Below are positions 428 through 62,476 of a stretch of 64,000 nt of DNA, in pieces (within the stretch, counting starts at the first letter, position 1; each line of letters starts with the position of its first letter). The notes under the pieces are model-generated. The model worked only from the letters and a program-made list of their open reading frames with translations, was not told the DNA's origin and did no database searches. The stretch spans positions 1 through 64,000 of the forward strand of contig CAJQTG010000017.1 of NCBI GenBank assembly GCA_905618925.1, read 5' to 3'. This stretch comes from an uncultured Candidatus Thioglobus sp. (lineage in GTDB: Bacteria; Pseudomonadota; Gammaproteobacteria; PS1; Pseudothioglobaceae). Position numbers and translations under genes: made by a program.

Positions 428-835
428 TTAGAAACTGTAGGAGTCTGAGTTAGTGACCATTACGCCATCCATTTCGACGCTTACCCCTTTTGGGAGTGCG
501 TTTACACCAATAGCTGCCCTGGCTGGATATGGCTCCGTAAAGTAGGTCGCCATAATTTCATTTAATGTAGCAAAATTACTTAGGTCTGTTAAGAAAATAT
601 TAAGCTTAACGATATCACTTAAGCTGCCTTTTGATTCTTGACACATGGCTGATAAATTCTTAAATACTTGATGAATTTGCTCTTCAATACCACCTTTAAC
701 TACTTCCATTGTTTCAGGAACTAAAGGAATTTGCCCTGAAAAATAGATCGTAGTTCCTCCTGTAACAGCAACAGCCTGTGAATATGTGCCTACTGCAGCA
801 GGAGCCTTATTAGTTGAAATAATATATTTTTGCAT
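428..835 (-). CDS. ridA: RidA family reactive intermediate deaminase
   Basis: A 135-residue protein of normal family length. RidA hydrolyses reactive enamine/imine intermediates released by PLP enzymes such as threonine dehydratase, in the cytoplasm as a homotrimer. The substrate-binding arginine is visible at R106 in [11 protein letters not shown], and the conserved C-terminal stretch [12 protein letters not shown] includes E121. The N-terminal [12 protein letters not shown] and YFSGQIPL motifs are also typical. It lies immediately upstream of recG on the same strand and likely shares its transcript. Nothing looks damaged. Confidence 0.93.
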
Positions 836-908
836 GATAAATAATTATAGTAGTTAATAAGTTTAATTATATTCTGGATAGGTATTTTTTTGGAGAACTC
901 TTTAATAG

Positions 909-2093
909 TTATTGTATTGAATTGTCAACATCATATTTAAGACTCCAAATCAATAATCCAGCAATAATGGATAAAATAAATGCAATGAGTAGTGATGAAT
1001 TATAGTTACTGTATTGATCAAATAACCAGCCAGCAAGAGAAGGTGAAACTAAGCCTGCAAATCCCCAGGAAGTAAAAATTCTTCCATAGGCCCATGTTGA
1101 GTAATCAGGTCCAAATATTTGATTTACTAGGGTTGGGTAAATTGCAATTAACGCTCCATAAAGAGAAGCGATAAGAACTAATAAAATTAATAAAAGGTTA
1201 ATACTTGAAAATATTAAAAGACTTAAAAGGGCGAGAGAATTAATAATTAATATTACTAAAATAGGGCGCTTACAGCCAAATCGATCTGCAAGCCAACCAG
1301 CATATATACCTGCAATTCCACTTCCAAAAGCCATTAGTGAGATAGCAGTTATTGCAACAGTGGATGAGCCTCCAGCAGAACTAATAATAGGTACTGCGTG
1401 TCCTATTGTCATAAGGCCAGCAAACACACCCAAGAAAAAAATAAACCATAGCTTAATAATTTTTGCTTTAAAATTGGGATTTTTGCTTATGAGTTTTGTT
1501 TCTGTAATCAAGTTTTTATTTGCTAATCGAAAAAGAATTAAGCTGATAATAACTAGTGTGGATAAGATCATGACGCCAATCAAATAACCAGCTTTAAAGT
1601 CAAAATAACTAAACAGTAATGGATAGAGCATAGAGAAAATAACTGCACCAAATGCATAGGATGCAGTTATAGCGCCAAGTGCTAAGCCAAGTCTTTTACT
1701 AGAGGTTATAGAAGATACTGCGTAAAGAGAAAATCCATAGCCTAAGCCACTTGCGAATCCAAAGAAAAAGCCATAGCCAACTACCCATCCAATCCAACTG
1801 CTTGAACTTGTTATCAGGACGCCAATCAATGGTAAGGTTGCTATCAAAACTATGATAATTGATGGAGAGAGCTTGCGGTATATACTGTGCCCAAAAAAAA
1901 CAGCAACTGTTACGCATATTAGCCCAGTTGAATAGATAAGGCTTGATGCCATTCTTCCAGAATTAATTTGAAATTCAATATTTTCTATTAGAGTGCTAAA
2001 TGCATGAATAGAGCCCATACAAAAAGTAATTAATAGGCATGAAATAAAAACTAAAGATTGTTTATTCTTCTCAGAAGGCGTATGTTTTTCCAT
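909..2093 (-). CDS. MFS transporter, oxalate/formate antiporter (OFA)-like
   Basis: A 394-residue protein made almost entirely of hydrophobic segments (about 12 membrane helices). It has the MFS loop motif GWLADRFGCKRP near residues 262-273 and an OFA-like opening in which the first helix begins soon after the start. Transport of a small carboxylate is a reasonable family-level guess; the substrate cannot be read from sequence. It follows potC on the same strand after about 50 bp. The start codon lies inside a perfect 14-bp inverted repeat (listed separately) and there is no clear Shine-Dalgarno sequence, so translation or transcription may be controlled there. Confidence 0.75.
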   Translation of the reverse strand: MEKHTPSEKNKQSLVFISCLLITFCMGSIHAFSTLIENIEFQINSGRMASSLIYSTGLICVTVAVFFGHSIYRKLSPSIIIVLIATLPLIGVLITSSSSWIGWVVGYGFFFGFASGLGYGFSLYAVSSITSSKRLGLALGAITASYAFGAVIFSMLYPLLFSYFDFKAGYLIGVMILSTLVIISLILFRLANKNLITETKLISKNPNFKAKIIKLWFIFFLGVFAGLMTIGHAVPIISSAGGSSTVAITAISLMAFGSGIAGIYAGWLADRFGCKRPILVILIINSLALLSLLIFSSINLLLILLVLIASLYGALIAIYPTLVNQIFGPDYSTWAYGRIFTSWGFAGLVSPSLAGWLFDQYSNYNSSLLIAFILSIIAGLLIWSLKYDVDNSIQ

Positions 2094-2120
2094 TAATGAG
2101 ACTATACATTAATGGAAAAA
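2085..2120. promoter_or_regulatory. Perfect 14-bp inverted repeat covering the MFS start codon
   Basis: The arms TTTTTCCATTAATG (2085-2098) and CATTAATGGAAAAA (2107-2120) are exact reverse complements around an 8-base spacer. On the minus strand the downstream arm contains the ATG of the MFS gene. No T-run follows either arm, so it is a poor intrinsic terminator. It could be a repressor operator or an mRNA hairpin that hides the start codon. Confidence 0.6.
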
Positions 2121-2143
2121 TAATGGGATAAAAATTAAAAGCT

Positions 2144-3049
2144 TTAGTGAGGAGTAATGCCGCGAATTTTTTCAGATCTACGGCGAAGCCATTCAAGTGT
2201 GGAAAGCAAGACAATAGAGAAAATCACGAGAAGAGTTGCAGCAGCTAGAATCGTTGGACTTATCTCATTGCGAATTCCAGACCACATTTGTCTTGGCAGG
2301 GTGTATTGATCAGGGCCACCAACAAAGAGAACAATAACGACCTCATCAAACGAGGTAATAAATGCAAATAGACCACCTGCAATAACTCCTGGAGCAATAA
2401 GAGGTGCTTGTATTTTGAAAAAATTCCTTAACGGTGTTCCTCCTAAGCTTGAAGCAGCGCGCAGCAAGTTATTATCAAATCCAGAGAGTGAGGCAGAGAC
2501 TGTTATGACAACAAATGGTATCCCTAAAATAGTATGGGCAATAATAAGGCCTGGTAATGTTGCAACAAGATTGACTTTAGCAAAAAAGAAAAACATTCCA
2601 GCAGCAGTAATGATAAGCGGGACAATCATTGGAGAAATCATGAGCGCCATTATTAAACGATTAAACGGCATATGTCTATTAGACAAACCAAGTGCTGCTA
2701 ATGTGCCTAAGACACTTGCAAAGAAAGTGGCAAAAATTGCAATGATAGCACTATTTTTAAAGCCAATCATCCATCTGTCTGTGCACACTGTTGTTCCTGA
2801 ATTTTCAGAACAAATACCAAACATTTCTTTGTACCAGCGAGTTCCATAGCCATCAAAATTAAAGGTCCAAGTCTCAAAGCTAAAGAATTTCATTTCAGGG
2901 CTAAATTGAAGGAAAACTGAATTAGTAAATGATAGTGGAATAACAACAATGAGCGGTGCAACTAAGAAAAACAATACGAGACCACAAAATGTTCTATAGG
3001 AATAGTGCCAAAGTTTTTCTCGAGGTGTTGTGTAAGCAGGAAATTTCAT
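2144..3049 (-). CDS. potC: Spermidine/putrescine-type ABC transporter permease (PotC-like)
   Basis: A 301-residue inner-membrane permease with about six hydrophobic segments. The EAA-type loop that docks the ATPase is visible as LLRAASSLGGTPLRNFFKIQAPLI, split here as RAASSLGGTPLRNF followed by KIQAPLI, around residues 196-218. An extended periplasmic loop after the first helix carries two cysteines (GICSENSGTTVCTD, about residues 78-91). It starts two bases past the end of the PotB-like gene and forms the second half of the heteromeric channel. Substrate could be a polyamine or another amine; family membership is firmer than substrate. Confidence 0.85.
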   Translation of the reverse strand: MKFPAYTTPREKLWHYSYRTFCGLVLFFLVAPLIVVIPLSFTNSVFLQFSPEMKFFSFETWTFNFDGYGTRWYKEMFGICSENSGTTVCTDRWMIGFKNSAIIAIFATFFASVLGTLAALGLSNRHMPFNRLIMALMISPMIVPLIITAAGMFFFFAKVNLVATLPGLIIAHTILGIPFVVITVSASLSGFDNNLLRAASSLGGTPLRNFFKIQAPLIAPGVIAGGLFAFITSFDEVVIVLFVGGPDQYTLPRQMWSGIRNEISPTILAAATLLVIFSIVLLSTLEWLRRRSEKIRGITPH

Positions 3050-3051
3050 TA

Positions 3052-4446
3052 CTATCCCATTTTTAAGTTATCAAGGCCAATGAGTCTGTCATATGCCCAA
3101 TAAAGAACCAAAACTGCAGCTAGAAGAATTGCTCCCATAGCAGCAGCAAGACCCCAATTTAATGTTCTTTGCATTTCACGCGCAACAAAGTTACCAATCA
3201 TTATTCCATCTTTTCCGCCCACAAGTTCTGGGGTGATGTAGTAGCCAATGGCAACAATAAATACTAAGATGCATCCAGCACCAATGCCTGGAACTGATTG
3301 AGGCATATATACACGAATAAATGCTCGAGTAGGGGTGGCGCCCAGATTTTGAGCTGCCTTCATGTAGCTTGGTGGAATACCTTTCATAACACTATAGATT
3401 GGCAAAATCATAAATGGCAGAAGTATCTGCGTCATTACAATAATGGTTCCAGTAAAGTTGTACATCATAGGTAGTCGATCTTCATCACTAAAACAAAGAT
3501 CAATATTGGTAGCACCAAAAAATGGCAGGTTCACCATTCCCTCAAAGCAAGGCAGGATGTACATTAAGGTGTCATTAACAACACCATTTTGTTGAAGCAT
3601 AATCATCCAAGCAACAATTCTTACTAGGAGCGACGTCCAAAATGGCATCAATACGCATATCATTAGTATATTTGATGTTCGCATTGGAAGTGTTGCTAGT
3701 AAATAAGCAACTGGGTAGGCAAGTAGTAAACAGAAAATAGTCACCATTAAGCTTACTTGAAGAGTTCTAATCCAAATTGTATTATAAATTTTTAAATACT
3801 CTGCCTTTTGAATAATATTTTTATTTGCATCAAACTTTAAGTCGACAGCATTAAGATAATAGCCCATTGTGTAGGGATCTTTCATAGCGCCTAATGATTG
3901 CCAGAATTCAACCTTAGCCCAGCGCTTATCTCTTTTGATCATCTTCTCTTTGAAAGGTGCTTCCCATATGAAGGGCTTAACTTCTTCTTTTGATTTTTTA
4001 TCAACTTTTAAAGCTTCTTTAACTGTTTTATTTATTAAACTTTTCCATCCAGAGTACTCATAAGTCATTCGAGTGCCAGATCTACCAAGTAAATTCTTAC
4101 CAATAACATTTCCTTTACCATCTTTAACTTTGATTGTGACTCTAATATCGTTTACAACTGCGGCAAACATTTCTTCACTAGGGAGTTGGGATTTATCTTC
4201 CCATAATTCGTACTGAGCAAATGTCTGTGGAAATACTTTGTTAATAGCGATGTCATCAACACTTCTTGAAAGGAGCGAGCCTATTGGCGTAACAAACATT
4301 AATAATAGGAATAATAGTGGGGGTAGAATTAACAGAAAAGAGCGGATTTTTGTTCTACGCAAAGATTTGCGTAAGCTGACTTTAAGAGGGACGCCATCAT
4401 TCGTTAGTAATAGCTCTTGAGAATTTGTTATCGAAGTATCACTCAT
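3052..4446 (-). CDS. potB: Spermidine/putrescine-type ABC transporter permease (PotB-like) with large periplasmic insertion
   Basis: A 464-residue permease, much longer than the roughly 290 residues usual for PotB. The extra length is a hydrophilic segment between the first membrane helix (about residues 35-55) and the second (about 230). It is rich in Lys/Glu and would lie in the periplasm. The rest is typical: about five more helices and the EAA-like loop AAQNLGATPTRAFIRVY. Long insertions at this site are known in a marine subgroup of PotB-like permeases, so it is probably genuine rather than a fusion. It is separated from the upstream binding-protein gene by a terminator-like hairpin. Confidence 0.82.
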   Translation of the reverse strand: MSDTSITNSQELLLTNDGVPLKVSLRKSLRRTKIRSFLLILPPLLFLLLMFVTPIGSLLSRSVDDIAINKVFPQTFAQYELWEDKSQLPSEEMFAAVVNDIRVTIKVKDGKGNVIGKNLLGRSGTRMTYEYSGWKSLINKTVKEALKVDKKSKEEVKPFIWEAPFKEKMIKRDKRWAKVEFWQSLGAMKDPYTMGYYLNAVDLKFDANKNIIQKAEYLKIYNTIWIRTLQVSLMVTIFCLLLAYPVAYLLATLPMRTSNILMICVLMPFWTSLLVRIVAWMIMLQQNGVVNDTLMYILPCFEGMVNLPFFGATNIDLCFSDEDRLPMMYNFTGTIIVMTQILLPFMILPIYSVMKGIPPSYMKAAQNLGATPTRAFIRVYMPQSVPGIGAGCILVFIVAIGYYITPELVGGKDGIMIGNFVAREMQRTLNWGLAAAMGAILLAAVLVLYWAYDRLIGLDNLKMG

Positions 4447-7124: not shown

Positions 7125-8519
7125 TTAGTCTTCTACTTTTTCTCCCATAAGAGCCGTCATAATTAGAACAGTTATACCACCAGTGGTGATTGCTGAACTA
7201 AATATACTCCCCATAAGCTTACCAAATGTACCGCCTATATTAGTGGCTAAAGCTCCTGCAAACTGAGGAACTAGTAGTACACCTAAACCCATACCAAAAG
7301 AAACAGCTAGTATGAGCATATTTCTACGATTCATATTCACCGTTGAAAGGATTTTGATTCCCGCAACTGCAACAGTACCGAACATTACGATCGTAGCGCC
7401 GCCCAAAACAGAAGCTGGTAATGCCCTAAGGATTGATCCTACATGAGGAAATAAACCCATAATAACAAGGATTATTCCAATCCAAACTCCTACATGCCTG
7501 CTTGCAATACCTGTTAACTGTATCACGCCATTGTTTTGGCTAAAAGTTGTATTAGGGAACGTATTAAAAACAGCAGCAATTGCTGAATTAACACCATCAC
7601 CTAGAACACCATTCTTGATTCGAGTTAAGTAACCTTCACCCTTAATCTCTTGTTTTGATATCATGCAGTTTGCAGTAATATCACCAGAAGATTCTATTGT
7701 AGTAATTATGTAAATTAATGCAATAGGTATAAAGGCAATAATATCAAAATCAAAGCCATACTTAAAAGGTATAGGGATACTTATAACTTGTTGAACAGCG
7801 AACAATGAGCTGAAACTAATCTTGCCCAAAACTGCAGCTACAACAAATCCTATAACTAGTCCAATAACGATTGATGCTAAGCGGATCCACTGATTGTTAG
7901 AGCGATTCAATATAATGATTGAAATCATTACGATGAAACCTAGAGCAATGTTCTGTAAAGAGCCCCAAAACTGTGGCTTATTATCTAGCAACCACTGTCC
8001 ACCACCAAGGTCAGTTAAACCAACCTTAATAAGGCTAATACCAATAATAGTAATTACTGTACCCGTTACAATTGGAGTAATTAGTTTTCTCAGCTGCGGT
8101 AAGAACTGACTTAAGCCAATCTCTATAAATGCTCCTAAGAAACATACACCCATTATCATTGCAAGAATTTCTTCTGGCCCACCACCTTGAGCTTTCGCAA
8201 GAAAACCAGCCGCAAGAACAGAGCTAAGAAACGCGAAACTTGTTCCTTGAACGCAGATCATTCCAGCACCAATATTCATTGGTTTTTTTGCTTGAATAAT
8301 TGTTCCAACGCCTGAAACCATAAGTGCCATACTTATAAGATAAGGTATTTGCTCGCCTAGTCCAAGTGCACCACCAATGATTAAGGTTGGGGTTATGACG
8401 CCTACAAAACTTGCAAGCACATGTTGCAGTGCTGCAAAGAATTTTTCAGCGGTTGGTGGATTCGCCTCTAGCTCGTAAATTAATTCTGAATCTTGAGTCT
8501 CTCCATCACTCATATTCAT
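7125..8519 (-). CDS. NCS2 family uracil/xanthine permease
   Basis: A 464-residue membrane protein with about 14 hydrophobic segments. The family signature QNNGVIQLTG is at about residues 328-337 in the context NTFPNTTFSQNNG, closer to xanthine/urate carriers (XanPQ, UacT) than to UraA. The conserved histidine in the first helix (LQHVLASF, H33) and the substrate-site glutamate in TTIESSGD (about 276) are both present. It imports a purine or pyrimidine base by proton symport. It is monocistronic: its own terminator lies downstream and about 200 bp of non-coding DNA upstream. Confidence 0.88.
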   Translation of the reverse strand: MNMSDGETQDSELIYELEANPPTAEKFFAALQHVLASFVGVITPTLIIGGALGLGEQIPYLISMALMVSGVGTIIQAKKPMNIGAGMICVQGTSFAFLSSVLAAGFLAKAQGGGPEEILAMIMGVCFLGAFIEIGLSQFLPQLRKLITPIVTGTVITIIGISLIKVGLTDLGGGQWLLDNKPQFWGSLQNIALGFIVMISIIILNRSNNQWIRLASIVIGLVIGFVVAAVLGKISFSSLFAVQQVISIPIPFKYGFDFDIIAFIPIALIYIITTIESSGDITANCMISKQEIKGEGYLTRIKNGVLGDGVNSAIAAVFNTFPNTTFSQNNGVIQLTGIASRHVGVWIGIILVIMGLFPHVGSILRALPASVLGGATIVMFGTVAVAGIKILSTVNMNRRNMLILAVSFGMGLGVLLVPQFAGALATNIGGTFGKLMGSIFSSAITTGGITVLIMTALMGEKVED

Positions 8520-8597
8520 TCTCCTTTTAATTAATAAATATTATTTTATAAAATTATCCTCGTTAGTGAAATCATATTGAAGACGCTTTTAATTGCT

Positions 8598-8610
8598 AAC
8601 AATAATTGTT
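8598..8610. promoter_or_regulatory. Short palindrome upstream of NCS2 permease
   Basis: AACAATAATTGTT is a perfect 5-bp-arm palindrome within a larger near-symmetric stretch beginning GCTAAC and ending TTAGC. It lies about 80 bp upstream of the permease start, a plausible operator position. AT-rich palindromes arise easily by chance, so support is weak. Confidence 0.25.
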
Positions 8611-8722
8611 AACATTTAGCATATTACCATTACTTTATATTTTATATAGTTAATTTTGAGCTACTAAAAAGAATCTTCTTTAGACAGTGTATTTAGGAGA
8701 ATCTTTAGTGGGATTAAGGAGA

Positions 8723-8810
8723 TGGTGCCCGGAGCCGGAATCGAACCGGCACGCCCGTTAAAGGCGCAGGATTTTAAGTCCTGTGTGTCTACCAATTTCA
8801 CCATCCGGGC
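8723..8810 (-). tRNA. tRNA-Leu (anticodon UAA)
   Basis: Read on the minus strand it starts GCCCGGATGGTGAAATTGG and ends CCGGGC-A-CCA, giving a seven-base acceptor stem with encoded CCA. The anticodon arm is CAGGA-CTTAAAA-TCCTG, anticodon TAA. A long variable arm (GCGCCTTTAACGGGCG) marks a class II tRNA, and the T arm contains GGTTCGATTCC. All elements fit tRNA-Leu. Confidence 0.97.
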
Positions 8811-8893
8811 GAATAGGGATGAAGATCGAGAAATTATATACTATCGATAATATTTTTTTTATCAATTACTCATTAAGAAAAACTAAAGAATTA

Positions 8894-9862
8894 TTAAAAC
8901 CTTTCATTGAGCCATTTAATAAACTGCTTGGTTGTTTGATCGCGATTAATTTCATTTAAACTTTCATGACGAGTACCCTCTAAAATATTGCAGGTGACAT
9001 CAGAAAGCCCAATATTTTTAAGCTTTATTGCTAGTTTTTCCATGTCACCTCCATTTAGAGTACACGGATCTTCAGCTCCACCAACAATGTGAACTGGAAG
9101 ATCTTTAGGTAATTTTTGTAAGTTCTTTTTATTGCCTGCACAGAAAACACCACCTAAGATGTCTCTCCACATGGATATTGATACTTCAAACCCACAATAA
9201 GGGTCGTTGACATATAGATTCACTTCATTCTCATCTCGAGATAGCCAATCAAATTTAGTACGATTGGGTTTAAATTTTGAATTCCAAACTTCAAAAGAAA
9301 GTTTCCAGGCAATTAAGCTTGGAAGATTTTGATTGCGAAAAAAACCTTCTATTGCTAATATTATTCTTGAAGCTTTAGGTAGAAGCCCTGTTTCAATTCC
9401 ACTATTCCAGCAGGCTAGAGCATTAACTTGATTTGGATACTTTAATGCAAAATTTAAATTAATGATTGAGCCAAGAGAGTGTCCGAAGCAAATTATCGGA
9501 GTATTAGGAAGCCTTTTTTTAATAAGATTTACAATTTCATTTTGATCTTCTAATACTGTATTTAATCCCTCAGATTTAGCAAATACCCCTTGAGGTGCAT
9601 CATCCGCTATAGTTCGTCCATGCCCTCTAATGTCATGAGCAAAAACTGCAAAGCCAGCGGCAGTTAACTGCAATGCAAATCGAGAGTATCTCCCAGAATG
9701 CTCAGCCATTCCATGGGTAATATGGACCATGGCTTTAGCTTCTCCTGAAGGCAGAAGACTATGCAGGTTAATTTTTGAGCCAGTGGGGCTTTGATGAATT
9801 TCTTTTTGCATAAAATTAATAAATTTACTATTTAATTGCTTACAAACAATATAGTAGCTCAT
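8894..9862 (-). CDS. Alpha/beta hydrolase, lysophospholipase/monoacylglycerol lipase-like
   Basis: A 322-residue serine hydrolase. The nucleophile elbow GHSLG is at 127-131 (Ser129), the acid is probably the Asp in GGAEDPC (about 268) and the base the His in GTRHESL (about 300). The early HITHGMAEHSGRY motif (about 47-59) is typical of the PldB/monoglyceride-lipase group. Residues 1-17 look unlike the family, and a second ATG at 9811 (protein starting MQKEIHQSPTG) matches the usual N-terminus better, so the true start may be there. Likely role: hydrolysis of lysophospholipids or monoglycerides; the substrate is inferred. Confidence 0.8.
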   Translation of the reverse strand: MSYYIVCKQLNSKFINFMQKEIHQSPTGSKINLHSLLPSGEAKAMVHITHGMAEHSGRYSRFALQLTAAGFAVFAHDIRGHGRTIADDAPQGVFAKSEGLNTVLEDQNEIVNLIKKRLPNTPIICFGHSLGSIINLNFALKYPNQVNALACWNSGIETGLLPKASRIILAIEGFFRNQNLPSLIAWKLSFEVWNSKFKPNRTKFDWLSRDENEVNLYVNDPYCGFEVSISMWRDILGGVFCAGNKKNLQKLPKDLPVHIVGGAEDPCTLNGGDMEKLAIKLKNIGLSDVTCNILEGTRHESLNEINRDQTTKQFIKWLNERF

Positions 9863-9983
9863 TTGATAAATACTTACAAATAATAAATATTAATGACGCG
9901 ATTAAACCTTTAACTCAGAAAGATAAATTATTTATGTAAAATTTATCTTTTATGAGTTTTAATCTCTTGAGGTTGTTTCTATA

Positions 9984-51294: not shown

Positions 51295-51855
51295 ATGAAA
51301 AGACTTTTTGATTTTCTGTTGGTAGTGATTGTTTTCATTCTATTGATCGTTCCAATAATACTGGCCGCTATTGCTGTACGTATAACCTCAAAAGGAGGGG
51401 TTTTGTACTGGTCTGATAGGATTGGTAGAAATAATGAAATATTCAAGATGCCTAAGTTTAGATCAATGTTGATTGATGCTCCCAGTGTAGCAACACATTT
51501 GCTGAATAATCCAGATTCTCATTTATCACCGATTGGTGGTTTTTTGCGTCGAACTAGTTTAGATGAGCTACCGCAACTATTTTCAGTCTTAAAGGGTGAT
51601 ATGAGCTTCATAGGACCGCGACCTGCACTTTATAATCAAGATGATTTGATTGCTTTGCGCACTGAAAATGGCGTGGATAAATTGCTACCAGGTATTACAG
51701 GCTGGGCACAAGTGAACGGACGGGATGAGCTATCAATTCATGATAAAGTCGCATTGGATGTAGAATATCTAAACCATCAATCCTTTTGGCTTGATATGAA
51801 AATTTTATGGATGACTTTCTTAAAGGTTGTGAAGCGTGATGGCGTGAGTCACTAG
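51295..51855 (+). CDS. Initiating sugar-phosphate transferase (PglC/WbaP-type)
   Basis: A 186-residue monotopic phosphoglycosyl transferase. One N-terminal membrane helix (about 5-28) leads to KMPKFRSMLIDAP, then RRTSLDELPQLFSVLKGDMS and FIGPRPAL (about 81-107) with the catalytic Asp-Glu. The size matches the minimal PglC form. It links the first sugar-1-phosphate to undecaprenyl phosphate and so starts the repeat unit. The start codon abuts the upstream stop. It is the last gene before the integrase module. Confidence 0.92.
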   Translation: MKRLFDFLLVVIVFILLIVPIILAAIAVRITSKGGVLYWSDRIGRNNEIFKMPKFRSMLIDAPSVATHLLNNPDSHLSPIGGFLRRTSLDELPQLFSVLKGDMSFIGPRPALYNQDDLIALRTENGVDKLLPGITGWAQVNGRDELSIHDKVALDVEYLNHQSFWLDMKILWMTFLKVVKRDGVSH

Positions 51856-51901
51856 TAAAGATGGTGGTTGTGTTAAATGAGGTTATTGGCTTTTCTTGTA
51901 G

Positions 51902-52792
51902 TCAATTAATAATCAACCAGTTACTATCATTCCAATTTTGAAGATATCTCATCGCACTAGCTTCTGATTTCCAGCCACCTCTAAGCATAATTTTCTCTAG
52001 TGGGATGTTTTTATTTAATAGATCAATCGCAGCACCAACTCTAAAAGAGTGACCTGATAGTTCCCCAATTTGATTCAGACCAGCTTGTTTTTGAAGGCTC
52101 TTTAAAATATGATTAATTGATGCCGGAGTGAGAGAAGATTTGGTGAATAGATTTCTTTTGAAGCTTCTGAGGATGCAGCCACTCTCCTGATCAATTGCTA
52201 GTGACCATTTTGAAATCATCTCAGACAGCTCGCTAGATATTGGAATTATTTTTCCTTCGTTGTACTGATCAGTTTTAGAGTGTCTAAGTAAAAGTGCATG
52301 TTTGTGATTACTGAAATGTTGCAGGTCTTCAAATTTAAATTTACAAATTTCAGAACGTCGACGCATGGTTTCATAACCGAGCTGTAAGAGCAGCTTATTT
52401 CTAAGACCAACTATATCACCAGAGCAAACATCTTTAAGTTTTATTAGAATATCATAAATTAGGGGTACTGCCTGTTTTTGAGGTTTACCAAATTTTCTTC
52501 GAAGCTTTTTAAAAGTCAGAATGACTACAGGCTCTTTTGTGGGGTTGGTGCTTTTAGTGAGATTGAATATACTGCTAAGGCTGGCTACTCGCCTTTGGAT
52601 TGTTGCAACAGTTAGACTCTCGCCCATTTCTAGAATATAGTCTGCAAATTTATCTTCATGAATATCTAGAGGGTCGTATTGATATTGCTGACACCAGTCG
52701 GAATAATGCATATAATCTGATCTATACGATCTGATTGTGTTGGGCGCATAAGCACCCTCTAAAGAATCGAACAGGAGATTTGTTCTATGCAT
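51902..52792 (-). CDS. Tyrosine recombinase / site-specific integrase
   Basis: A 296-residue recombinase. An N-terminal SAM-like core-binding domain (about 10-95) is followed by the catalytic domain, in which the expected residues are present: R145 (ETMRRRSEIC), K173 (HSKTD), H248 and R251 (GHSFRVG), W274 (RGGWKSEA) and Y283 (MRYL). It therefore looks active. The nearest neighbours are a divergent XRE-type gene and an unknown minus-strand gene. It is not XerC/D-like in context. No att repeats were found around it. Confidence 0.88.
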   Translation of the reverse strand: MHRTNLLFDSLEGAYAPNTIRSYRSDYMHYSDWCQQYQYDPLDIHEDKFADYILEMGESLTVATIQRRVASLSSIFNLTKSTNPTKEPVVILTFKKLRRKFGKPQKQAVPLIYDILIKLKDVCSGDIVGLRNKLLLQLGYETMRRRSEICKFKFEDLQHFSNHKHALLLRHSKTDQYNEGKIIPISSELSEMISKWSLAIDQESGCILRSFKRNLFTKSSLTPASINHILKSLQKQAGLNQIGELSGHSFRVGAAIDLLNKNIPLEKIMLRGGWKSEASAMRYLQNWNDSNWLIIN

Positions 52793-52805
52793 TTTAATTC
52801 CAAGT

Positions 52806-52820
52806 GGTATTTAAAGTACC
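52806..52820. promoter_or_regulatory. Imperfect palindrome between divergent integrase and XRE genes
   Basis: GGTATTTAAAGTACC: outer arms GGTA/TACC are exact and the centre is TTTAAA-like. It lies 13 bp upstream of the integrase ATG and 17 bp before the XRE ATG, so a protein bound there could control both. Confidence 0.4.
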
Positions 52821-52836
52821 ATTATATACTATTTTT

Positions 52837-53076
52837 ATGATTTCATCAAGACAAATTAAAGCTGCACGTTCGCTCCTTGGGTGGAAGGGTAAAGACCTTG
52901 CTGATAAGAGTGGAGTTGGAATTACAACGTTAAGAAGGTATGAGGCTCAAGACGGAATTCCTAACGCAAACAAATTTGTTCTTAAAGCCATTAAAGGCTG
53001 TCTTGAGGAGGTAGGAATAGTGTTTTCTGGAGACCCTATTAAGAGCCCAGGCGTATCACTAAACCAAAAAGATTAG
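52837..53076 (+). CDS. Small XRE-type helix-turn-helix regulator
   Basis: A 79-residue protein starting MISSRQIKAARSLLGWKGKD. The HTH covers about residues 6-45 (DLADKSGVGITTLRRYE), followed by a short strand segment EEVGIVFSGD and a PGVSL end, a common small XRE-like architecture in proteobacteria. ATG at 52837 is preferred over an upstream in-frame GTG within the palindrome. It is divergent from the integrase and ends one base before the stop of the convergent unknown gene. Confidence 0.8.
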   Translation: MISSRQIKAARSLLGWKGKDLADKSGVGITTLRRYEAQDGIPNANKFVLKAIKGCLEEVGIVFSGDPIKSPGVSLNQKD

Positions 53077-53979
53077 TTATACATCGCTTCGTATTTCTCG
53101 CAGCTTAAGCAACTCTCCAAGTGTTTTAGAAAACTGCCTTTCTTCCGCAGTTCGATAGCGTTGAATTAAACTTAATTTATGAGGGTCAGGCATAGCAGCG
53201 TCTTTGACTTGCTGAGATCTTTTTTCTACATTGTTAAGAATTGTTTGTGCCTGTATGTCGCTACCAAGGTTTCTAGAGAGTTGTTCGAGATATCGTTGTA
53301 GTGAAGTTGATTGAACTTTGTTAGAGTCTTTTGTTATCTCTGCTTCGGACAAGGGCTCGTTATTAGAAGGGCCGTCTATATCTATAAATTTTATCTTTAA
53401 ATTGAAATTGTTTGACTTGTCAGTTTCTCGAAGTATGAAACTATACAAATCAAGATCTTCCTCGAAACACTTTTTGATAATATGATCTTTGGCCATTGGC
53501 ATATTTTTTTCGACATAACCCCATCCGGATACATCACTTAGATTTTGAAAGTCAATTTCATCCATTAGATTAATCTTATCTATTACGATGTTAGGATTGT
53601 ATGTTGGATATCCAAGACGGGCAGTCTCTATGGCATCGATCAATCTTGAGTCTATTTTGTAATCATTGCTAAGGCTTTTGATAGCTTCAATAATATGTTC
53701 AGCCTCACTACTGGCAAGATCAAACATGGCATTCTCAACCTGCTGAATACGCATCAGCCTCACGGTGCACTCGGCCAGTTTAGAGATGAGAACTTTTTCA
53801 ATGGAAGTTTTAGGATCAAAATCAACTATTAAATTTTTAACAGTCTCGTCATAAAGAGACTGTTCATTTGCATCTAACCAGTTTCTTGCAGTAAGGCCGT
53901 GAGTGATTGAATTACGACTGGAGATGGCCCTGCCCTTGTCGGTTTTTGGGCCACCGCTGTGTTTATCTTTATTAGACAT
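53077..53979 (-). CDS. Unknown protein with N-terminal GPKT...RN...HGLTA motif
   Basis: A 300-residue protein. The N-terminal GGPKTDKGRAISSRNSITHG, continuing LTARNW (about 9-34), is a widespread signature of proteins of unknown function. The C-terminal LIQRYRTAEERQFSKTLGEL (about 270-289) matches the other end of that family. Between them is a helical, charged body (IEKVLISKLAECTVRLMRIQ). It has no signal peptide or membrane helix. It lies with an integrase and an XRE gene, so a mobile-element or DNA-related role is plausible. I cannot assign a function. Confidence 0.75.
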   Translation of the reverse strand: MSNKDKHSGGPKTDKGRAISSRNSITHGLTARNWLDANEQSLYDETVKNLIVDFDPKTSIEKVLISKLAECTVRLMRIQQVENAMFDLASSEAEHIIEAIKSLSNDYKIDSRLIDAIETARLGYPTYNPNIVIDKINLMDEIDFQNLSDVSGWGYVEKNMPMAKDHIIKKCFEEDLDLYSFILRETDKSNNFNLKIKFIDIDGPSNNEPLSEAEITKDSNKVQSTSLQRYLEQLSRNLGSDIQAQTILNNVEKRSQQVKDAAMPDPHKLSLIQRYRTAEERQFSKTLGELLKLREIRSDV

Positions 53980-54146
53980 AATGTAAGGGTTATAATTGAA
54001 CTATTAGCTTATTTTAACTGGATTTATAAAATTATATATGTACAAAAAATACCTTTTTTACGAAACGAACTTACCTTTGATAAATGCCCTTATCAACTCT
54101 AAAAGCGCTTATACTTAACTAACGAAATTATACTGATTCGTATCCT

Positions 54147-56072
54147 GTGAGAAACGCACTCGTTAATTTGTCACGATTTCAAAAACAACTTGTCCTGTTG
54201 TTTTTTGATTCTGTCGCCCTTGTGTCTATACTGCTGACATCGTTTACAATCCGACTTGGATACTTCTACGTTCCAGAAGGTGATTTGGTCTGGATGGTAT
54301 TGGCTGCGCCTATTGTTGCCATCCCTATCTTTTTTCGCTTCGGGCTTTATCGAGCAATTATTCGTTATATTGGCTTTAAGGCGTTATGGTCTATCATTCA
54401 GGCTGTAACGCTATATGCCCTAGTGTGGGGGGTGATGGGCTTTATGACTGCGGTTGAAGGTATGCCGCGCTCGGTTATATTAATTAATTGGCTCTTGGCC
54501 GTGATAGTCATTGGCGGCTCGAGGATGGTTGGGCGCTGGCTGCTATCAGAGCAACAAAATAATCAAACCATTAATGTGATAGTTTATGGAGCGGGCTCTG
54601 CAGGCAGGCAGCTGTCGATCGCTTTAACGCAGTCGAGTGAGTACAATACGGCGGCTTTTATTGATGATAACACTGACCTGCAGCGTCAATCTATTAATGG
54701 CATTGAGATTTATTCAAGAAATGATTTAGATCGCCTGATTGAGCAAAAAAACGTCACTGAAGTGTTGCTGGCGATTCCCACATTGTCTCGTGCACGGCGT
54801 AAAGAAATTATTCATTTTCTGGAGCCTTTTCGGCTGTTTGTGCGTTCATTGCCAGGCGTTTCAGAGTTGGCTCAGGGCAAGGTAAAAATTGCCGATTTGC
54901 GCGAGATAAGCATTAAGGATCTGCTTGGCCGTGATTCTGTAGCTGCCAACAAGGAGCTATTGAGCCTAAATATTACCAATAAAGTGGTCATGGTAACCGG
55001 TGCTGGCGGCTCTATCGGCTCTGAGCTTTGTCGGCAGATATTATTTTTAAAACCGCAAGTGTTAATACTATTTGAGCGAAATGAGTTCGCTCTGTACAAC
55101 ATTAATAAAGAGCTCTCACGTATCGCTATACCCTATGTTGAGATATTACCAATGCTGGGCTCTGTCAATAACAGAAAGCGCTTAAGCCATATAATGACGC
55201 GCTTTAATGTGCATACAATTTATCATGCAGCAGCATACAAACATGTGCCGATGGTGGAGTTTAACAATACCGAAGGGGTGAATAATAATATTTTTGGCAC
55301 CCTTAATTGTGCACAGGTTGCGATTGATAATGAGGTAGAGATTTTTGTGCTTATTTCAACCGATAAGGCGGTGCGTCCAACTAATACCATGGGGGCAACA
55401 AAGCGCTTTGCTGAGATGGTATTGCAGGCCTTGACATTCAGCCAAAGCCAAACAGAGCAAAACTCTCAGGACGGTGCTGAAAAGGACTCTGCAGGACAAT
55501 ACAGTACACGCTTTAGCATGGTGCGATTTGGTAATGTGTTGGACTCCAGCGGATCGGTGATACCGCTGTTCAAAGAACAGATTAAAGAGGGCGGTCCGAT
55601 TACTGTGACCGATGCTGAAATTCTGCGTTATTTTATGAGCATACCCGAGGCTGTTGAGCTGGTTATTCAGGCAGGTTCCATGGCTAAGGGAGGGGATGTG
55701 TTTGTGCTTGATATGGGTGAGCCTGTGCGCATTGTTGATCTGGCTAAAAAAATGATTCGTTTAAGCGGCCTTAAGATTAAGGACAAGCTCCATCCGGATG
55801 GTGATATTGAAATTGAATTTACCGGGCTGAGGCCAGGTGAAAAGCTTTATGAGGAACTGCTGATTGGTGATAATGTGTCCAAGACTGACAATCCAATGAT
55901 CATGCGCGCAGAGGAAGAGATGGTGGCCTGGGATGATTTAAAGTTAATTATTGATGAGTTAGAGCAGGCTATTGATAGCGACAATCAGGATAAGCTGCGT
56001 CAGCTACTAATAAAAGCCGTGCCGGGTTTTAAACCACAATCTAAGATTACCGATATTTTGTATGATGCTTAA
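54147..56072 (+). CDS. wbpM: WbpM/CapD/PglF-type membrane UDP-GlcNAc 4,6-dehydratase
   Basis: A 641-residue protein. Four N-terminal membrane helices (about 15-125) precede a first Rossmann segment (IVYGAGSAGRQLSIAL, about 146) and the catalytic SDR domain with VTGAGGSIGSELCRQ (about 284-298) and the S-M-K active site STDKAVRPTNTMGATKR (about 411-427). It makes UDP-4-keto-6-deoxy-GlcNAc for QuiNAc-type sugars. The start is GTG. Part of the gene (line 54481-54540, 33 of 60 bases G or C) is far richer in GC than the Wzy region, suggesting a different history. Confidence 0.92.
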   Translation: MRNALVNLSRFQKQLVLLFFDSVALVSILLTSFTIRLGYFYVPEGDLVWMVLAAPIVAIPIFFRFGLYRAIIRYIGFKALWSIIQAVTLYALVWGVMGFMTAVEGMPRSVILINWLLAVIVIGGSRMVGRWLLSEQQNNQTINVIVYGAGSAGRQLSIALTQSSEYNTAAFIDDNTDLQRQSINGIEIYSRNDLDRLIEQKNVTEVLLAIPTLSRARRKEIIHFLEPFRLFVRSLPGVSELAQGKVKIADLREISIKDLLGRDSVAANKELLSLNITNKVVMVTGAGGSIGSELCRQILFLKPQVLILFERNEFALYNINKELSRIAIPYVEILPMLGSVNNRKRLSHIMTRFNVHTIYHAAAYKHVPMVEFNNTEGVNNNIFGTLNCAQVAIDNEVEIFVLISTDKAVRPTNTMGATKRFAEMVLQALTFSQSQTEQNSQDGAEKDSAGQYSTRFSMVRFGNVLDSSGSVIPLFKEQIKEGGPITVTDAEILRYFMSIPEAVELVIQAGSMAKGGDVFVLDMGEPVRIVDLAKKMIRLSGLKIKDKLHPDGDIEIEFTGLRPGEKLYEELLIGDNVSKTDNPMIMRAEEEMVAWDDLKLIIDELEQAIDSDNQDKLRQLLIKAVPGFKPQSKITDILYDA

Positions 56073-56993: not shown

Positions 56994-57532
56994 TTATTAC
57001 TACTTTTTGTTTTTTTATAAGGATGTTATACCAGACTAAACATTATGCTGTTATGGGCATTGATATAAATTTCATAACTCGTAAAACTAAATAATAAGAA
57101 GTTCAAATGACGAAAAATATAAGAGCTTATTCAACAGTTGCCGAATGAATTTGTATTGTACCCTACAAGAAAATGTAATCCCATGTCTAGAATTCTCAAT
57201 CTAATTCCAATCCAACAATCTCATATATAACAAAGAATACATCAAGCGACAGTTGAATGATTCCGTACAGAACCTTTCAAATAGTCAGAATATTGTAAAT
57301 CTTGTAAGAGTTTAAAGAATGTTAAATCTTTTAAAAATGTTGTTGACAAACCAAAATTAGATTTCCTAGTCTAGATGCCTGATTTTAACTGGTTATATTT
57401 TTTTATATTTTATAATAAGTTCTCTAAAGCCATGCCTACTATTGACTTGTAGGACAGTTATTTAAATTGTACATTCGTATTTGATTACAATATAATATGT
57501 TCTTATCATTTTATAATAAGTTAGGAGTGTAT
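56994..57532. other. Intergenic region between divergent galU and the T1SS operon
   Basis: No supported gene in about 540 AT-rich bases. A TTGACA (57343-57348) followed 18 bases later by TAGTCT is a possible rightward promoter, but its -10 is poor. The rest shows nothing I could name. Confidence 0.5.
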
Positions 57533-58819
57533 ATGTTAGGTAAGCAATCAAAGTTAGCTAAGACAGTTTTAGTGTTCTTTGGCCTGCTATTAAATAGTAC
57601 CTTGATAAGTGCAAATGATAACATCTGCAATACAGCATTTGATGAATTAGTATTGGAAGGTTTGAGCTCTCACCCTAGTATTGAGGTATCAAAAAAAATA
57701 GTTATAGGAGCAGACCTTCAATTAAGTAGTGCCAAGTGGGGATACTATCCTACACCATCAATTGACGTAGCCAAGTCATTAAGTAAGACTAGAATAACTT
57801 TGAGACTTGATCAACCATTGTGGGACGGTGGTAAAATTAATGCTGTTCGCGACAAAGCTCAAGCCCGGAAAACTGAGGCGACTTATGTCTATGCTGAAAG
57901 CCAATATCAGCTAATTGAAGACTATCTAAATACACTACAAAAGTATCTTCAAGCGCAAGACAAAATAAGTATTATGAATAGTGGGATAGGTCAGCTTAAA
58001 TCTCTCATGCAAGTAATAGACAGAATGATAGTGGCCGGTGAGTTAAGTATTGCGGATAAGAATTTATTAAGTACAAAAATTGCAGATATATATTCTAGCT
58101 TGGAGACTACCAGGGCAGAATTCGATGTGGCAAAAATCCAATTTGAAATACTTACAGGACATAACGTTGAATGTGATGTTTCTTTCAATGATAAACCAAT
58201 ATTCAGAGGCAGTATCAATATAGAGTTGTTAGTTGATGATGCGTTAAACTTTAGCCCATCATTAAAAATACTAAATGCTAGAATTGAGGCGGCAAAATCA
58301 GATGTTGATTCTGCAGAATCTAAGTTACTTCCAACTTTAAAACTAAGAGGTGAATATAAACAAGGTGCATTGTACGATGGCGAAAATGGCGAAAAAGAAG
58401 GTTTAATCTATTTAGTATTCGAGATGTCTACAGGCGCTGGAGCATCTTTACTATCTAATATTGGACGATCAGAAATAAACGTATTAAAAGTTAAGAATGA
58501 AAAACTTTCTAAAGAAAAAGAAGTTATAGACAAACTAATGAACAATTACACTAGATTTGTTGCAGTGAAAAATAATATAGAGATTTTATCAAACGATATA
58601 ATAATTGCGGAAAAAGTTTTTGATTCTAATAACAGGCTGTTCTTTCTGCAACAAAAAAAATGGACTGATGTGGTTAATGCATTAACTGCGTTGAATAAAA
58701 AGAAAATTAGCAAAGCCCAATTGCTGGGCGAATATAAAGTTTTGGAAATGAAGCTAGCTCTAAAAACAAATCGATTGTCACTAAAAACTGGAGGGTTTTT
58801 GAGTGAAGTATTACAGTAG
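57533..58819 (+). CDS. TolC-like outer membrane protein of type I secretion system
   Basis: A 428-residue protein. Residues 1-26 look like a signal peptide (MLGKQSKLAKTVLVFFGLLL then NSTLISA). Two OEP repeats of long helices follow (about 40-225 and 240-420), with RITLRLDQPLWDGGKINAVR typical of TolC-family proteins such as LapE/AggA. It forms the outer membrane channel. ATG at 57533 has the ribosome site TAGGAGTG; an upstream in-frame ATG at 57497 does not. The end overlaps the ABC transporter gene by 17 bases. Confidence 0.87.
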   Translation: MLGKQSKLAKTVLVFFGLLLNSTLISANDNICNTAFDELVLEGLSSHPSIEVSKKIVIGADLQLSSAKWGYYPTPSIDVAKSLSKTRITLRLDQPLWDGGKINAVRDKAQARKTEATYVYAESQYQLIEDYLNTLQKYLQAQDKISIMNSGIGQLKSLMQVIDRMIVAGELSIADKNLLSTKIADIYSSLETTRAEFDVAKIQFEILTGHNVECDVSFNDKPIFRGSINIELLVDDALNFSPSLKILNARIEAAKSDVDSAESKLLPTLKLRGEYKQGALYDGENGEKEGLIYLVFEMSTGAGASLLSNIGRSEINVLKVKNEKLSKEKEVIDKLMNNYTRFVAVKNNIEILSNDIIIAEKVFDSNNRLFFLQQKKWTDVVNALTALNKKKISKAQLLGEYKVLEMKLALKTNRLSLKTGGFLSEVLQ

Positions 58820-61304
58820 TGTAGAGCAGCTCAAAAATGATTTTAATTGGTTAAGCAGAGATTGCACATTAGATCATTTTTCATATTCGAAACTGTCAGA
58901 GCATGAGCATGAAAAACTCATTAAAACAATCGTAAAAGGTACAGGCAATAGCTTTGTAAAAAATCTATTTAATCAATTATTACTCAAATTAAATCTTCAG
59001 TCCACAGCATGGGAGTCAACACTTACTAATTCTATGCTGCCGGCACTTGCACTTGTTCCTGGTGCTGGTATGAAAGTTATTATTGATATTGATACAAATG
59101 GTGATTATGAATCTATAGACGCAAGCGGTTCTAACAAGCATCAGTCTTTTCCTAAGAAAACAACCTTTAGAGTGCTAAAGTTTGATTTGTATTATGGCAG
59201 TGTAGAGCAGCTGAAAAATGATTTTAATTGGGTAAGCAGAGATTGCACATTAGATCATTTTTCATATTCTAAACTGTCAGAGCATGAGCATGAAAAACTC
59301 ATTAAAACAATTGAACAACGTATAGATAATGACTTTGTAAAAGAGCTATTTAATCAATTATTACCCAAAATAAATCTTCAGTCCACAGCATGGGAGTCAA
59401 CACTTACTAATTCTATGCTACCGGCACTTGCACTTGTTCCTGGCGCGGGCATGAAAGTTATTATTGATATTGATATAAATGGTGATTGTAAATCTATAGA
59501 CGCAAGCGGTTCTAACAAGCACCAGTCTTTCCCTAAGAATACAACCTTTAGAATGCTAAAGTTTCAAGCAAGAGAAACAGCTACAAGCTCTGCAAAAGCA
59601 ATGTTTAAATCCATTGCAAAAAAACAAATCAAATACCTGAATTATGCAATTATCGCCTCTATTAGTATTAACATTTTGGCGCTAGCATCTTCATTTTACA
59701 CAATGCAAATATACGACAGAGTAATACCAACTAATGGACTTTCAACACTGATAGCTTTAACAATAGGTGTTAGTATTGCAATGTTTTTAGAAATGATATT
59801 AAAACTATCGCGTGGATCTATTGTTGATCAAGCATCAAAAAATATGGACATAGAGTATTCTCATAATATTTTTGATCGTTTTCTGAGTGTGCGCTCAGAC
59901 AATCTACCTAAAGGTATTGGCACACTCTCTAGCAAAATCAATAGTTATGTTTCAGTTAGGGGATTTATTACTACTGCAACTATATTTACCGTAATAGACT
60001 TTCCTTTTGCCTTCTTTTTCTTGGGCATTATTATGTTGGTCGGCGGTTTCGACATAGGATTGCTAATATTTGCGTTTATCGTGGTTACTGTTTTAATGAG
60101 TTTTATCTTTAAAAATAAGATAGAGGCGTTAATTAAATCTTCAACAATGGCATCACATAAGAAGCACGGACTTTTGGTAGAGAGCGTTGAGAATGCACAA
60201 AAGATTAAAACAACAGGTGCTAGTTGGAGCGTGATGAATAAATGGAGTCAATTTTCAGAGGATGCTATTAATGATGATATACACATTAAACATTACACTG
60301 ATATATCATCTTATTTGGCTACCTTTGTGCAGCAAAGTAGCTATGTTGCAACAGTAGCTTTCGGTGCATATTTGATTGGATCAACTTCTGACTTGACCAT
60401 GGGCTCTTTAATAGCTATAACAATTATATCGAATAAAGTATTTCAGCCGATGGCGCAAATTCCGGGTCTTTTTGTACAATGGGGCAAGGCAAAAGTAGCT
60501 ATTGAAGATTTAGATGGTCTTTATGAGTTGGCTGGCGATAACGAGGGCGTGGATAGGCCTATTACTTCACAATTGCAATCATACAATATTCAGTGCAGCG
60601 ATTTAAAATTTGCATACAACCAAGATTCAGTTGTATTGAATATACCAAGCTTACAAATTCAGCCGGGTGAAAAGGTTGCAATCTTGGGAGTCATTGGTGC
60701 AGGTAAATCAACACTATTAAAAATGCTGTCAGGCTTGTACAAGCCTAGTGTGGGCAAAGTGTTGCTAGATGGTATTGATATGCAACAACTTTCTAAAGAC
60801 AATATTAGCAATACCATAGGTTATCTTGAGCAGGATACAAAATTATTCTCAGGCACTCTGCGAGACAATTTATGTATTGGCTTAGTTCATGCAACGGATG
60901 ATCAGATCTTAAAAGTTTGTAAGTTAACTGGACTAATAGGTCTAATATCAGCCTTGCCCAAAGGCTTAGATACCGAAGTGCCTGAGGGCGGAGAAAGTGT
61001 ATCTGGCGGTCAGAGGCAATTGATTGCATTAACTAGAATGCTGATTGGTGAAAGCAAGATTCTCTTACTTGACGAGCCAACAGCGAGCATGGATGAAGGC
61101 ACTGAAAGGCGTATCTTGAATACACTTCATCAAAATCTAACTAAAGAACAAACCTTAGTAGTGGTGACGCACAAACCAGCCTTATTGAGTTTAGTTGATA
61201 GAATTGTCATTATGACTGAAAAAGGCATTGTGGCAGATGATACAAAGGAAGCTGTATTAAAAATGTTAGAAGATAACAAAACTCATCAAACGAATCAATC
61301 ATGA
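58803..61304 (+). CDS. Type I secretion ABC transporter with duplicated N-terminal domain
   Basis: An 833-residue exporter. Residues 1-255 consist of two near-identical 127-residue units (C39-like in position and in LPALALVPGAGMKVIIDID, but without a catalytic Cys-His context). A six-helix membrane domain (about 275-560) follows, then an ATPase with Walker A near 629-636 (GVIGAGKS), signature VSGGQRQ near 732 and Walker B ILLLDEP near 752. It exports the giant adhesin encoded downstream. Family members usually have one N-terminal domain; the total is about 120 residues longer than LapB-type exporters. Confidence 0.88.
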   Translation: MKYYSSVEQLKNDFNWLSRDCTLDHFSYSKLSEHEHEKLIKTIVKGTGNSFVKNLFNQLLLKLNLQSTAWESTLTNSMLPALALVPGAGMKVIIDIDTNGDYESIDASGSNKHQSFPKKTTFRVLKFDLYYGSVEQLKNDFNWVSRDCTLDHFSYSKLSEHEHEKLIKTIEQRIDNDFVKELFNQLLPKINLQSTAWESTLTNSMLPALALVPGAGMKVIIDIDINGDCKSIDASGSNKHQSFPKNTTFRMLKFQARETATSSAKAMFKSIAKKQIKYLNYAIIASISINILALASSFYTMQIYDRVIPTNGLSTLIALTIGVSIAMFLEMILKLSRGSIVDQASKNMDIEYSHNIFDRFLSVRSDNLPKGIGTLSSKINSYVSVRGFITTATIFTVIDFPFAFFFLGIIMLVGGFDIGLLIFAFIVVTVLMSFIFKNKIEALIKSSTMASHKKHGLLVESVENAQKIKTTGASWSVMNKWSQFSEDAINDDIHIKHYTDISSYLATFVQQSSYVATVAFGAYLIGSTSDLTMGSLIAITIISNKVFQPMAQIPGLFVQWGKAKVAIEDLDGLYELAGDNEGVDRPITSQLQSYNIQCSDLKFAYNQDSVVLNIPSLQIQPGEKVAILGVIGAGKSTLLKMLSGLYKPSVGKVLLDGIDMQQLSKDNISNTIGYLEQDTKLFSGTLRDNLCIGLVHATDDQILKVCKLTGLIGLISALPKGLDTEVPEGGESVSGGQRQLIALTRMLIGESKILLLDEPTASMDEGTERRILNTLHQNLTKEQTLVVVTHKPALLSLVDRIVIMTEKGIVADDTKEAVLKMLEDNKTHQTNQS
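58818..59183 (+). repeat. Tandem repeat in T1SS ABC gene, unit 1
   Basis: 366 bases repeated in frame 381 bases later with only scattered substitutions. Translation starts SVEQLKNDFNWLSRDCTLDH and ends FRVLKF. Synonymous and non-synonymous differences are both few, so the duplication is recent. Confidence 0.95.
59199..59564 (+). repeat. Tandem repeat in T1SS ABC gene, unit 2
   Basis: Second copy of the unit at 58818-59183, offset by 381 bases (127 codons). It differs mainly in a short central segment (IEQRIDNDFVKELF instead of IVKGTGNSFVKNLF). Confidence 0.95.
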
Positions 61305-62476
61305 GTGACACAAGATTGCCTTACATATTAAGAGTTAACCCTTTGTTTATTATCTTTTGTGCTTTATTTATAGTTATTATTCCGGTGTTAATTTGGGCCA
61401 ATTTTGCTGAAATCGAACAAAGAAGTACCACTCGGGGTGTTGTTATTGCAGCTGATCAAACTCAAAAAATACAAGCACCAATAGATGGCGTGGTTGACAA
61501 TATTACAGTTATAGAGGGTCAAAAAGTAAAAAAAGGCGATATTTTAGTTGTACTAGAAAAAGAACAAAATCAAGCATCTCTTGATGCTGCAGCTTCAAAA
61601 GTGGCCTCATTACAAGCAAAACTTAAAAGATTAAAAACAGAGGTTAGTGGCGAAGATTTAATTTATCCAATAGGATTTTTAGATGGTAATTACCAAGAAT
61701 TCATTAAAACGCAGCAGAATCTTTTTTTATTAAGAAAAAAATCATTAGAGGATGAGACCTCCTCATTAATTAGTGCATTAATGTTAAAGGAGGAAGAGTT
61801 AATTTCTAATCAAAGGCTTGTCGAGTCTGGCGATATCGGGCGCAATAAGATCTTAAAGATTGACAGAGAAATAGTCGACCTTAATGGCAAGATTTTAAAT
61901 ATACAAAATACATTCCTTCAAAATGCTCAAGAGGAGATGACCAAAACAGAGGAAGAGTTGTCAATCAGAAAAGAAATGCTAACAGAGAAGAGGGTGACAC
62001 TTGAGCGCTCTGAAATCATCTCGCATATGAACGCTGTAGTCAAAGAGATTATCATTACCACAAAGGGCGCGAAAGTTAGGCCAGGTGATATCATTCTGGA
62101 ATTGGTTCCCTTGGGTCAAGAGCTTATCATTGAGGTAAAACTTAAACCAACCGATATCTCTTTTGTTAAAACGGGTCAAAAGGCTTCGGTTAAATTAGAC
62201 ACTTATGATTTTAGTATTTACGGTTCTTTTGACGGCAAAGTTGATTATATTAGCCCAGATACCATTATTGAACAAAGCTCTAGAGGCGAAGAGTACTTTT
62301 TTAAAGTCCTTATTTCGCTTGATCAAGGCAATCTATTTACCAAAAAAGGCACAGCGATTGACGTCACAACAGGTATGGGTGCACAAGTCGACATTATTAC
62401 CGGAAAAAGAACGGTATTACACTATCTAACCAAGCCAGTCATTAAGGTTCTTGATGAGTCATTTACCGAAAGATAG
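61301..62476 (+). CDS. HlyD-family membrane fusion protein of type I secretion
   Basis: A 391-residue periplasmic adaptor. One membrane anchor near the N-terminus (about 13-32), then the biotinyl-lipoyl-like half (KIQAPIDGVVDNITVIEGQK, about 55-74), a long coiled-coil hairpin (about 85-235) and the second lipoyl half with SHMNAVVKEI (about 243-252). It bridges the ABC exporter and the TolC-like channel. Its ATG overlaps the ABC gene stop by four bases (ATGA), so the three genes are one operon. Confidence 0.9.
   Translation: MSDTRLPYILRVNPLFIIFCALFIVIIPVLIWANFAEIEQRSTTRGVVIAADQTQKIQAPIDGVVDNITVIEGQKVKKGDILVVLEKEQNQASLDAAASKVASLQAKLKRLKTEVSGEDLIYPIGFLDGNYQEFIKTQQNLFLLRKKSLEDETSSLISALMLKEEELISNQRLVESGDIGRNKILKIDREIVDLNGKILNIQNTFLQNAQEEMTKTEEELSIRKEMLTEKRVTLERSEIISHMNAVVKEIIITTKGAKVRPGDIILELVPLGQELIIEVKLKPTDISFVKTGQKASVKLDTYDFSIYGSFDGKVDYISPDTIIEQSSRGEEYFFKVLISLDQGNLFTKKGTAIDVTTGMGAQVDIITGKRTVLHYLTKPVIKVLDESFTER

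Follow-up and report, generated by a model that had tools for sequence, protein, structure and literature searches.

A small module of a Cre-type integrase, a divergent XRE protein and an HGL protein at surface-polysaccharide loci: probably a little-known mobile element

Polysaccharide loci are known general hot spots of genetic exchange. The fast change of capsule and O-antigen clusters is usually ascribed to homologous recombination and IS elements, and is still an open question. Several described systems combine a site-specific recombinase with genes that come and go. Cre and Dre, from the phages P1 and D6, act on a core formed by a short inverted repeat around a 6-bp spacer. In small integrative elements and phage-derived islands, an integrase gene lies at one end, together with a divergent HTH repressor gene, a promoter palindrome and a site-specific junction. 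In integrons, a fixed recombinase sits beside exchanged genes, with toxin-antitoxin genes nearby. We analyzed a module that shares features with all of these, located in a 64,000-nucleotide stretch (hereafter the window) of contig C17 from a 1.25-Mb, 70%-complete genome (G000). Because the same module occurs in the relative BHECKSOX, a thiotrophic symbiont of Bathymodiolus heckerae, we take the family of this genome to be Thioglobaceae (SUP05 clade). The module recombinase (Int) has the same catalytic residues as Cre and Dre and a core of the same layout, the arms and spacer of which differ from those of loxP and rox. Unlike Cre and Dre, however, it is encoded together with XRE and HGL genes in a module carried by chromosomes or plasmids. 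The module likewise shares its general plan with the small integrative elements and phage-derived islands, but comprises only three to five genes, occupies a polysaccharide niche and, in the window copy, is devoid of replication, conjugation and packaging genes.

The int gene (51902..52792, minus strand) encodes an intact protein of 296 residues (Phage_integrase, 1.3e-19). Profile search against the PDB reports Cre/Tre as the top match (2.5e-40), well ahead of XerD (1.3e-13), and the closest phage protein is Dre (~28% identity). On these scores Int is a member of the Cre/Dre branch of tyrosine recombinases, nearer to Cre/Dre than to the Xer type. In an alignment with ten relatives, residues R145, K173, H248, R251 and W274 are invariant and Y283 is present in all except one relative truncated at a contig end, so the R, K, H, R, W, Y set that the original prediction had recognized is conserved in full. 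The XRE-type HTH protein is encoded divergently from int (52837..53076, plus strand; HTH_3, 1.3e-5) and comprises 79 residues from the ATG at 52837, where sequence conservation begins; the open reading frame list gives an alternative GTG at 52804. Convergent with the XRE gene, the HGLTA gene (53077..53979, minus strand) encodes an intact protein of 300 residues with an N-terminal HGL motif, which returned no Pfam or NCBIfam match above cut-off. Its predicted structure is mostly helical and of low confidence (pLDDT 53, pTM 0.39), too weak for a fold search. The three-gene unit was therefore confirmed in full, as was its position in a polysaccharide locus, between a sugar transferase gene (ST; 51295..51855, plus strand) and a capD-like nucleotide-sugar epimerase/dehydratase gene (54147..56072, plus strand). 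Domain searches identified no terminase small subunit or other packaging or replication gene in the window copy, which does not fit a phage satellite of the PICI type. The HGGxSTG proteins that partner int in Rhodobacterales have weak matches to PHROG terminase small subunits (3e-7), and Terminase_2 genes lie near int in three Rhodobacterales plasmids only; in contrast, the window HGLTA has no such match and nothing points to packaging.

The palindrome reported between int and XRE is real (TGGTATTTAAAGTACCA, 52805..52821, in the promoter region) and is presumed to be the XRE operator, but its sequence varies among modules and the decisive site lies beyond HGLTA. Many modules carry a palindrome in this spacer, related in G000, G142 and G071 and different elsewhere; individually these palindromes are weak, five having shuffle fractions of at most 0.04. 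They differ where the XRE proteins differ, which would suit an immunity-type diversification, and the spacer palindrome may thus be an operator that changes with its repressor. Beyond HGLTA lies an end signature that the original prediction had overlooked, made of an accessory motif (CGAAACGAAC, 54061..54070, plus strand) located 6 bp inside a lox-like core, TTGATAA-ATGCCC-TTATCAA (TTGATAAATGCCCTTATCAA, 54077..54096, plus strand). The core is a perfect 7-bp inverted repeat with a 6-bp spacer. The same layout, with the HGL end followed by C[GA]AAAC[GA]AAC and the core, is found in G031, G026, G067 and G071. In G142, from another gammaproteobacterial family, CAAAACGAAC precedes the core TCGATAA-CTGCAC-TTATCGT, as read on the contig, while in G809 the accessory motif accompanies a different palindrome, GCATTAG-GTGCG-CTAATGC. 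Allowing one mismatch, the accessory motif is present at the module end in five Thioglobaceae loci, G142 and G809, and at the equivalent place in the plasmid copies of Gemmobacter, Aestuarium and Marivivens. Sulfitobacter plasmids carry five TGC[AG]CGTTATCG sites beyond or beside HGGxSTG or CcdAB genes. A search of 83 Thioglobaceae genomes with the combined DNA pattern AAACRAACN{3,32}GATAANTGCNNTTATC returned six matches, and none with the reversed pattern as control. Five are the known loci; the sixth, in G004, immediately follows the C-terminal end of an HGL gene and has wzb, wecA-like, wza and wzc genes alongside, so a DNA-only pattern led to an additional HGL gene within a different polysaccharide locus. 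The G004 contig starts inside this HGL gene, and no int was detected in the genome. The core itself occurs once per module.

The original prediction had suggested a minimal mobile element and a comparison of strains at 51.9-54.0 kb. This comparison reveals presence and absence of the module rather than a fixed unit with invariant junctions. In G008 (126 bp, empty), G020, G009, G025, G007 and G010, the gap between ST and capD is empty or short, whereas G000, G067 and G071 have it filled, with a span of 2.3-4.3 kb in G000 and G067. It is also occupied in G031, where the contig ends inside HGLTA, while in G026 a remnant retains just the right end and the beginning of HGLTA. One chromosomal site is therefore known in both an occupied (G000, G067, G071 and G031) and an empty (G008) form. 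Right of the core, the occupied G031 and the empty G008 align as homologs, whereas the sequences on its left side are unrelated, a switch that maps the right junction of the module; by this alignment, the core is the boundary between element and chromosome on the side away from int. The filling of the same gap in other genomes, together with the six signature matches in 83 genomes and none in the controls, takes the unit beyond chance. The left edge is approximate (GTTAAATGAGGT, 51872..51883, plus strand; near GTTAAATKAGGT): similarity between G000, G067 and G071 begins there, ~20-30 bp beyond the int stop codon. No clean attL, second clean core or target duplication was found at this edge, so that an intact element bounded by an att site on either side is putative. 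Other genomes of the G067 genus resolved the left junction no better, and the block boundaries of the Rhodobacterales plasmids have no left-end motif in common. The HGL gene is interrupted by a TAA in G067 and split into two overlapping frames in G071; with the remnant of G026, this suggests that these copies may be decaying, a point against a mobile element. The three other integrases reported by the family search (two in G071 and a XerC-like one in G082) are devoid of the XRE/HGL module. Toxin-antitoxin genes (MazEF, ParDE, VapBC, CcdAB and PrlF) repeatedly adjoin the module or its former site (L008:5855-6474; L009:2848-3398; L111:1-830; L081:5886-6436; L085:3128-6693).

The module genes do not share one recent history. 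Between G000 and G067, dS is 0.58 for int, as compared with 1.56 for XRE, 1.54 for HGL, 1.54 for ST and 2.28 for capD. The window Int is 87-89% identical in amino acids to the G067 and G071 copies; the three Thioglobaceae Ints are 87-90% alike mutually and 47-49% identical to the G142 Int. In contrast, XRE identity is 53-61% among the three Thioglobaceae modules and 61-65% to the G142 XRE. These contrasts indicate different recent histories for int and for the XRE/HGL side, a pattern that would not be predicted for one unit moving as a whole. They would suit a resident, integron-like recombination platform, in which Int stays in place and swaps cassettes, sugar genes on its 3' side and XRE/HGL or toxin-antitoxin genes on its 5' side. 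Such a platform could account for the greater likeness of int between genera (dS 0.58-0.69) than of XRE/HGL, and for the sharp fall in identity at the int start codon, from ~90% to 55-69%. It also fits the toxin-antitoxin genes beyond the core in G067 and G071, the galE gene present between ST and int in G067 only, the Int 3' end that faces convergent polysaccharide genes in several lineages, and the varying order of CcdAB and HGGxSTG blocks relative to int on Sulfitobacter plasmids. However, that block order could come from ordinary rearrangement. Unlike in an integron, the recombinase is of the Cre type and not of the IntI type, scoring 52 bits with the NCBIfam integron-integrase model, far below its cut-off of 220, and the search for repeated cores at each locus found no repeated cassette site or attC-like array around the module. 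We regard a resident platform as rather unlikely.

Pairs of int and divergent XRE genes were collected by int similarity alone, irrespective of context. They were found in G142, G809, G454 and G482, in eleven units on ten Rhodobacterales plasmids and on one IMG/VR contig (L071), and thus span the Gamma- and Alphaproteobacteria. Most of these units carry an HGL gene (fused, or as ORF1 + HGL) or an HGGxSTG gene; G454 and G482 carry instead an HD-domain protein and two large ORFs. The recombinase and XRE partners expected to recur around HGLTA-type proteins thus do so in other families and in another class, but weakly when viewed from the HGL side: for the majority of HGL proteins sampled in other places, neither a recombinase of this kind nor an XRE gene lies within 1.5 kb. 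The partnership is therefore a property of the int + XRE group and not of the HGL family, and what recurs, in terms of gene content, is a Cre-type int + XRE pair carrying an HGL or HGGxSTG gene. ORF1 + HGL pairs also occur with no int or XRE within 1.5 kb (L138, L139 and L152), indicating that this pair is a wider unit. In the genome contigs database, a peptide-pattern scan with HGLTA alone returned no match and one with Int returned BHECKSOX as its sole match. Viral contigs yielded only distant int/XRE relatives, and the plasmid search with HGLTA only matches of 25% coverage, on two Picosynechococcus plasmids. Literature searches retrieved no paper describing a module of this kind or the HGGxSTG proteins. 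A paper on S. faviae SCSIO W_1866 describes toxin-antitoxin systems and genomic islands, some encoding integrases, recombinases or transposases, and a term search of it returned nothing on the module (PMC10221251).

All 18 readable loci, including G004, which was found by its DNA pattern, and leaving aside the L071 contig, lie in or beside polysaccharide clusters. The setting was scored with tblastn markers within ~9 kb, markers from the own lineage of each locus being left out. Polysaccharide markers from other lineages were found at 14 of the 18 module loci and at none of 21 controls, integrases from the same superfamily that lack an XRE partner (Fisher p ~2e-7, a value that serves only as a guide since the markers were chosen from these loci, flank lengths vary and the controls are more distant). 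Of the four marker-negative loci, G142 is a 3.8-kb contig with an O-antigen ligase gene, while W027, Marivivens and Gemmobacter, when viewed more widely, adjoin large polysaccharide islands. Six settings can be told apart at the lineage level, namely the Thioglobaceae ST-capD gap, G004, G809, G142, G454/G482 and the Rhodobacterales plasmids, the cases of which are not independent of one another. An ordinary integrase island could nevertheless produce this association passively, as these loci collect mobile genes of all kinds: polysaccharide loci are established exchange hot spots where toxin-antitoxin genes, IS elements and unrelated genes pile up too, and no special relation would be needed. 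The absence of polysaccharide markers near all the control integrases and the conserved DNA signature specific to the module argue against this explanation, which we consider unlikely.

We favor, with moderate confidence, the reading that the window unit represents a family of very small integrative elements with polysaccharide loci as their niche. Its recurrence at surface-polysaccharide clusters in several unrelated groups and its conserved end signature make it probable that the module is a little-known mobile element linked to surface-changing genes. In such an element, the Cre-type Int would catalyze integration and excision at the lox-like core, the accessory motif alongside serving as the site of an accessory protein or as an arm site. 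XRE would repress the int and XRE promoters via the intervening palindrome, as phage repressors do. HGLTA, ORF1 + HGL, or HGGxSTG and its partner may be DNA-binding accessories in recombination, target choice or regulation; this role is suggested by the HGGxSTG motif, which resembles the N-terminal portion of certain small subunits of phage terminases. The likely reason for the niche is that the elements travel with, and persist among, constantly exchanged polysaccharide genes. A dedicated targeting mechanism toward these loci is possible; we rejected the core alone as the basis of target choice, as ATAANTRCCCTTATC has 16 matches elsewhere in the family against six for the reversed controls, mostly background inside unrelated genes. 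Two points count against the niche: the hot-spot nature of polysaccharide loci in general, and L071, whose contig ends at the int stop codon and whose int-distal flank consists of phage terminase genes and not of polysaccharide genes. A bolder proposal, which we hold to be improbable, is that of a Cre-type module dedicated to surface-polysaccharide loci across Proteobacteria, a non-integron platform at whose conserved lox-like site genes for sugars, HGL proteins and toxin-antitoxin systems would be gathered and swapped. If true, it would help drive the turnover of capsule and O-antigen clusters. A module present in six lineages with its own end signature offers a concrete, searchable agent of cluster change, and it places the uncharacterised HGL/HGGxSTG proteins in a recurring context, with DNA recombination as a candidate function.

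The remaining two roles put forward by the original prediction fared poorly. A defence or addiction unit, with XRE and HGL acting as a pair, could draw on the weak resemblance of XRE to antitoxin HTHs (NCBIfam 5e-5, below cut-off); however, PADLOC gave positive evidence for none of the genes, with weak generic HTH or chance matches for int and XRE and none for HGLTA, and relatives keep XRE while HGL is broken, making this role very improbable. A DNA-inversion (phase-variation) switch, for which a recombinase beside surface-polysaccharide genes has a Tsr-type precedent in Bacteroides, is more doubtful still and largely refuted, as the single core has no inverted partner in the window (next-best matches at chance level, 2 found as against 1.5 expected with up to two mismatches) and the pattern GATAAATGCCCTTATC occurs just once in the genome.

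Several of the relatives have further peculiarities. In G454 and G482, the HD-domain protein is encoded between int and XRE, and the two large ORFs adjoin the module (L075:211-5041 and L076:8491-13264); one has a weak Phage_integrase match (1.1e-8), and they are perhaps a second, larger element. The plasmid L082 of Sulfitobacter sp. OXR-159 carries two modules (654-3499 and 7315-9867), one apparently decayed and one intact. On L071, int, XRE, HGGxSTG and a 205-residue ORF lie beside a terminase large subunit gene and an HNH gene. Lastly, genes for a type I secretion set (TolC-like, ABC exporter and HlyD-like proteins) lie at 57497-62476 of the window, and the ABC exporter ORF (58803-61304) contains an N-terminal block of ~125 residues that is tandemly duplicated.
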